37,801 bases of DNA from Parcubacteria group bacterium (GTDB lineage Bacteria; Patescibacteriota; Minisyncoccia; Phycocordibacterales; Zambryskibacteraceae): NCBI GenBank assembly GCA_028286465.1, contig JAQBRN010000011.1, positions 1 to 37,801 of the forward strand, in the 5' to 3' direction. This document shows positions 166 to 1,525 of this stretch, in pieces (within the stretch, counting starts at the first letter, position 1; each line of letters starts with the position of its first letter). A program made the position numbers and the translations under genes. The notes under the pieces were generated by a model. The model searched no databases, had not been told where the DNA came from, and was given only the letters and a program-made list of their open reading frames with translations.

Positions 166-516
166 TTAGACGAATTCGATGACGGCCATTGGAGCGCCGT
201 CGGTCTTACGCTGGATCATCTTCGTGATGCGAGTATAGCCTCCGGCCCGGCCCTTGTAGCCTGCCGCAAGGCCGCCTGCAGTGATCTTCTTGGCTGCATC
301 TTCTCCGACGCGGGCGATGAGCAGGCGGCGGGATGCGAGAGTTTCCTTCTTGCCTAAGGTAATGAGCTTCTCAACGAAAGGCCTGAGTTCCTTGGCCTTG
401 GCCTCGGTAGTCTTGATCTTCTGCTTCAGCACGAGCGAGCGCGCCAAAGACTTCATCAGGGCGTTCCTCTGGTTCTTTTCCCTTCCGAATTTTCTTTTGT
501 TGTTTGCGTGTCTCAT
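166..516 (-). CDS. rplQ: 50S ribosomal protein L17
   Basis: MRHANNKRKFGREKNQRNALMKSLARSLVLKQKIKTTEAKAKELRPFVEKLITLGKK is a clear L17 sequence. Confidence 0.97.
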   Translation of the reverse strand: MRHANNKRKFGREKNQRNALMKSLARSLVLKQKIKTTEAKAKELRPFVEKLITLGKKETLASRRLLIARVGEDAAKKITAGGLAAGYKGRAGGYTRITKMIQRKTDGAPMAVIEFV

Positions 517-610
517 ATCCTTGCTGTTTTCCTTTGTGAGGCTGCCAGTATACCTTATTTCTCCCCTATTTCAACGTGATGCCAAACTCTCCGAGAGCGG
601 CGCGGATCTC

Positions 611-1525
611 CTAGATCCCCTTGTCGCCGAGGCCGTCGATATCATCGAGGTCCTTCTCCTTCTTCCGAGCAAGGCCTCCGACGGTGCGGATGTTTGCATT
701 GGCCAAAGCATTCTGGGTGCGGGCGCTGATGTCTAAGGATTCGATACGGGTCTTCAATACTTCTGGATCGATATCCGAGCGAAGTGCTGCGGAAGATTCT
801 TCGGGCGTCGACTCTTCTTCGACAGGCTCGTCTTCTTTGAAGCCGACAACGGCCTTCAGTTGGTTGATCATGATCTCGATCGACTGCACGAGAGCATCCT
901 GAGGAGCGATAGTGCCGTCGGTCTCGATGTGGAGGCGGAGCTTGTTGAAGTCCGTCCTGTCGCCGACGCGCATGTTCTCCACTTCGTATGAAGCGCGGCG
1001 GATCGGTGTGAAGATGCCGTCGAGAGAAATGCTGCCGATATCAACGCGGTTCTTCTCGAGCATTTCCTTGGCAACGAAGCCGAGGCCTTTCTCTGCGGTG
1101 ATCTCCATGTCGAGGTCGGCCGACTTGGTGGTCATCGTAGCGATGACCTGTTCAGGATTCAAAATCTCTACCTGGCCTGGGATCTCGAGATCGGCGGCGG
1201 TGATGGTCTTCTCGCCCTTGGCTTTCAGGGTAAGCGTCTGAGGCTCATCGGTCGTGAAGCGCATGCGGATCTTCTTCAAGTTAAGGAGGATGGTGATGAC
1301 GTCTTCCTTGACGCCCTCGATGGTCGAGAACTCGTGCGAGACGCCCTTGATCTTCACATTAGTGACGGCGACGCCGGGAAGCGAGCCCAAGATGATGCGG
1401 CGAAGCGAGTTACCGAGCGTATGTCCATACCCAGGGTAAAGACCCTCGATCTCGTAGATACCGGTGACCCCTTCCTCCTTTATGATCTTCGGCTTCGAAG
1501 GCAAAACGATGTGGTATTCAGCCAT
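611..1525 (-). CDS. rpoA: DNA-directed RNA polymerase subunit alpha; annotated ORF ends at an in-frame TAG, homologous sequence continues to 566
   Basis: GYGHTLGNSLRRIILGSLPGVAVTNVKIKGVSHEFSTIEGVKEDV is alpha-NTD; C-terminal HhH of alpha-CTD at the 3' end. Confidence 0.97.
   Translation of the reverse strand: MAEYHIVLPSKPKIIKEEGVTGIYEIEGLYPGYGHTLGNSLRRIILGSLPGVAVTNVKIKGVSHEFSTIEGVKEDVITILLNLKKIRMRFTTDEPQTLTLKAKGEKTITAADLEIPGQVEILNPEQVIATMTTKSADLDMEITAEKGLGFVAKEMLEKNRVDIGSISLDGIFTPIRRASYEVENMRVGDRTDFNKLRLHIETDGTIAPQDALVQSIEIMINQLKAVVGFKEDEPVEEESTPEESSAALRSDIDPEVLKTRIESLDISARTQNALANANIRTVGGLARKKEKDLDDIDGLGDKGI

Follow-up and report, generated by a model that had tools for sequence, protein, structure and literature searches.

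An isolated in-frame UAG within the alpha-CTD region of the only rpoA gene of a Zambryskibacteria-like Parcubacteria genome

The only rpoA gene of a Zambryskibacteria-like (Parcubacteria) MAG is interrupted within the region encoding the alpha-CTD by a TAG codon, after which conserved sense codons continue in frame; no comparable stop was found in its relatives with readable sequence or in the other sampled genes of this genome, which decodes UAG in the standard way. We somewhat favour the explanation that the stop is a consensus error or a variant that is not fixed. On this view it is a lone CAG>TAG (C>T) substitution of very recent origin, which would exist only in the assembled consensus, as a base-call or assembly error or as a minority strain variant near the contig end, while the population would still make the full 319-residue alpha; the consensus base, we infer, does not represent the functional population.

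The interrupted rpoA gene and its setting

The window, that is the whole stretch of 37,801 nucleotides analysed, is the entire contig C22 of a genome of 729,632 bases in 32 contigs, estimated to be 96% complete; among named relatives, the nearest to it are MAGs of Parcubacteria and Candidatus Zambryskibacteria. The original prediction of an in-frame UAG inside the alpha-CTD of rpoA, with conserved sequence continuing after it, was borne out. From the ATG at position 1525 the minus-strand frame reaches the premature TAG at codon 305, at a distance of 611 nt from the contig end, and then runs for a further 42 nt to a second TAG. The features concerned are the following:

611..1525, minus strand: assembled rpoA open reading frame of 304 aa, closing at the premature TAG
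611..613, minus strand: codon 305, the premature TAG, where 89 of 107 relatives have Gln (CAG or CAA); approximately residue 301 of E. coli alpha, by the offset read from the match range
569..610, minus strand: 14 conserved post-stop codons, EIRAALGEFGITLK, which together with codon 305 encode the greater part of the final alpha-CTD helix (predicted, residues 300-313)
566..568, minus strand: TAG terminator, the usual end of rpoA in the family
166..516, minus strand: intact gene of 116 aa next downstream of rpoA, which we take to be rplQ from this position and from the usual gene order of the operon
604..618, no strand assigned: inverted repeat GGATCT-AGG-AGATCC spanning the stop

When the stop was read through, the TIGR02027 rpoA model matched up to residue 319, with both TIGR02027 and NF003519 above their cut-offs, and in the profile search the PF03118 match spanned the stop, with '1 TAG' inside it. 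This is the single PF03118 match in the genome, corresponding to one alpha-CTD and to a sole rpoA alpha gene, so that a second rpoA supplying the domain was rejected; the CTD is encoded except for its cut last helix. An AlphaFold2 model of the CTD in which the TAG was read as Q (mean pLDDT 83) placed the final helix at residues 300-313, and the truncated alpha would therefore be predicted to keep 5 of the 14 helix residues.

Ancestral codon and age of the stop

A GAG>TAG change had been put forward as one that would explain the stop, an origin that the relatives do not support. At the equivalent of codon 305 the 107 relatives carry CAG (57), CAA (32) or GAG (3), the rest being mixed, and comparison of these sequences indicates that the ancestral codon was most likely CAG (Gln) and not GAG (Glu). 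The likely event would therefore be CAG>TAG, a C>T transition equivalent to G>A at position 613 of the plus strand, the commonest codon of the family being one transition away from TAG. None of the 107 relatives with readable sequence has a stop at this site, and their rpoA genes all end at the usual place after the last helix; relatives ending at the same point as the interrupted gene, which the original prediction had proposed to look for as the mark of a stable shorter rpoA, numbered 0 of 107. Nor was a loss of the alpha-CTD common to the lineage observed, every congener with readable sequence keeping the domain, and in an order-wide search of 397 genomes no stop within the alpha-CTD was found among the approximately 150 matches listed. 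No conspecific DNA was found in viral_contigs. One genome of the same family (G012, 96% complete) gave no match to either rpoA or the alpha-CTD, probably owing to an assembly gap.

The residues encoded after the stop are alpha-CTD-like and not a chance resemblance, as had been proposed: every post-stop position that is invariant or nearly so in 38 relatives (E, I, L, G, L and K) retains its residue. Compared with seven congeners or close relatives, the 14 codons after the stop carry 3-8 silent differences and 1-2 replacements, a pattern resembling that of the 50 CTD codons preceding the stop. In neutral simulations two or fewer replacements were obtained in 2.2% of runs with five third-position changes and in 0.16% of runs with seven. 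Since the differences are mainly silent, either the stop arose after the lineage had separated from the congeners or translation still extends through the region; these counts, together with the simulations, led to the rejection of an old truncation with a drifting remnant.

The stop also lies within an inverted repeat, a 15-mer present in a single copy in the genome, whose arms are a perfect 6 bp with TAG and 5 bp each if the codon is CAG. Mutations that perfect imperfect inverted repeats have been described (PMC7202029, PMC3820800), and a hairpin-templated mutation or a library fold-back artefact is a possible origin of the C>T change, although its completing an inverted repeat at one site proves nothing.

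Decoding of UAG and quality of the assembly

A sample of 264,883 bases (36% of the genome) was compared with the congener G002. Across 97 genes and 29,082 aligned codons, 1,153 of which are one transition from a stop, the rpoA TAG was the only credible in-frame stop, and in the absence of a second one within these genes it appears to be a one-off. No frameshifts and no other sign of poor quality were found in the sampled 36%. Other in-frame stops had been flagged; they fell mostly in small frames at 40-57% identity and were judged to be antisense shadow frames. In one case (L077) the opposite strand encodes a better-matching gene, and the stops flagged within the window lie opposite minus-strand ribosomal-protein genes.

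In the sampled part of the genome TAG terminates 21 of the 89 genes with homologues. Release factors RF1 (L063) and RF2 (L062) are both present and intact, carrying the release-factor motifs PxT and SPF, respectively. The 44 tRNA genes found with the Rfam tRNA model and typed by ARAGORN include Gln tRNAs with CUG and UUG anticodons; the suppressor tRNA-CUA that the original prediction had suggested looking for was not among them, in a genome estimated as 96% complete. Two of the tRNA genes are His GTG genes that differ in score and anticodon offset (G000:C16:9861-9934, L033; G000:C26:27721-27791, L052). A genome-wide recoding in which UAG would specify an amino acid had already been considered unlikely, and its probability is now negligible: it has in its favour this lone UAG where relatives mostly have Gln, and nothing more, against the use of TAG as an ordinary terminator, the presence of RF1 and RF2, the lack of a CUA anticodon among the tRNAs and the lone in-frame stop within the sampled codons, on which grounds UAG recoding is excluded for practical purposes.

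Readthrough of the UAG by a near-cognate tRNA, for example tRNA-Gln, with truncated and full-length alpha coexisting, is unlikely. The post-stop codons are conserved in the way that coding sequence is, as long-standing readthrough would leave them, and both Gln tRNAs are available; in this the gene resembles known cases of UAG readthrough or amber suppression, in which an in-frame UAG is followed by conserved sense codons. It differs from them in that no suppressor tRNA was found, the stop is not conserved in relatives and no structural signal accompanies it. RF1, which is present here with its PxT motif, also argues against this reading. No unusual RNA structure was detected around the stop (fold z = 0.22), and a conserved readthrough element was rejected on this value and on the absence of the stop from the relatives, which in all congeners precludes a conserved readthrough signal. 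Programmed readthrough of the rpoA UAG has therefore no positive support: constraint after the stop is present, but the stop itself recurs in 0 of 107 relatives. A more elaborate proposal, in which a fixed TAG would be read by near-cognate readthrough in the presence of RF1 and without a CUA tRNA, mixing the alpha forms and thereby adjusting transcription that depends on the alpha-CTD in a symbiont with a reduced genome, is very improbable.

Truncation, natural loss of the alpha-CTD and consensus error

The three options originally put forward for the stop (truncation, readthrough and error) were judged to be the right set. A genuine, recently fixed nonsense mutation is a serious candidate, albeit one that we hold to be less probable than a consensus error or a non-fixed variant. 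It would leave a 304-residue alpha with its assembly domain kept and most of the last CTD helix gone; the CTD would probably be misfolded, with contacts to UP elements and activators weakened or lost, and such a truncation would be an early step toward loss of the alpha-CTD. Given the lack of drift in the codons after the stop, such a mutation could only have arisen very recently. It has been reported that the alpha-NTD is sufficient for assembly and basal transcription, the alpha-CTD being dispensable for both, and that the alpha-CTD is absent in Tremblaya and Hodgkinia (PMC8321222). The same source states its loss in Parcubacteria, the reference cited there (PMC4508563) being without the words rpoA or RNA polymerase. 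On the other hand, loss of the alpha-CTD is lethal in Bacillus subtilis, in agreement with E. coli complementation data cited in that work (PMC4495994), and every other congener or relative with readable sequence has a full CTD.

Loss of the domain was also observed within the same order. In another family, f86, three genomes in two genera have an rpoA of approximately 230 residues that ends after the NTD, with rplQ directly next, and no PF03118 match was found in any of these three genomes:

L189 (G316), L190 (G213) and L195 (G337), with L198-L200: rpoA without CTD in f86

Other genomes of f86 (L188, L192) retain a weak, shortened CTD, and from these sequences the family looks like a case of stepwise natural loss of the alpha-CTD. 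A real truncation could therefore be tolerated. As in Tremblaya, Hodgkinia, the Parcubacteria of PMC8321222 and f86, the CTD would here be impaired and the NTD intact; in the three f86 genomes, however, nothing of the CTD is left and rplQ adjoins, whereas here the stop cuts off no more than the greater part of the final helix, whose conserved codons persist. Elsewhere, frames whose lengths of 148, 163, 491 and 517 aa do not fit rpoA carry PF03118 alpha-CTD-like domains (G130:C23:7271-7438, G035:C7:8597-8770, G407:C38:16035-16211 and G274:C5:79485-79673), and these include the order's best scorer among the matches listed.

The rpoA gene carries three private CTD residues (L294D, A301D and K309A), of which L294D is radical; they are a weak hint of relaxed constraint and, together with the clean sampled assembly and the real loss of the CTD elsewhere in the order, count in favour of truncation and against an artefact. 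An artefact or minority variant is nevertheless favoured over a real truncation because the stop is found in one genome, depends on one transition and is close to the contig end, while the congeners keep the CTD. The conservation of the post-stop codons, the single alpha-CTD in the genome and the lethality of its loss in B. subtilis give further support to the artefact reading. The stop resembles single-base consensus errors and strain variants in MAGs: it depends on a lone transition, affects a conserved essential gene close to where the contig ends, and is flanked by intact coding sequence. It differs from MAG consensus errors in that the sampled 36% of the genome yielded no second error of this kind.

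As matters stand, the finding is mainly a caution against taking a lone stop in one MAG for truncation or recoding. A stop that was both real and fixed would capture the first step in the loss of the alpha-CTD, a domain that is essential in B. subtilis yet missing in some reduced-genome bacteria.
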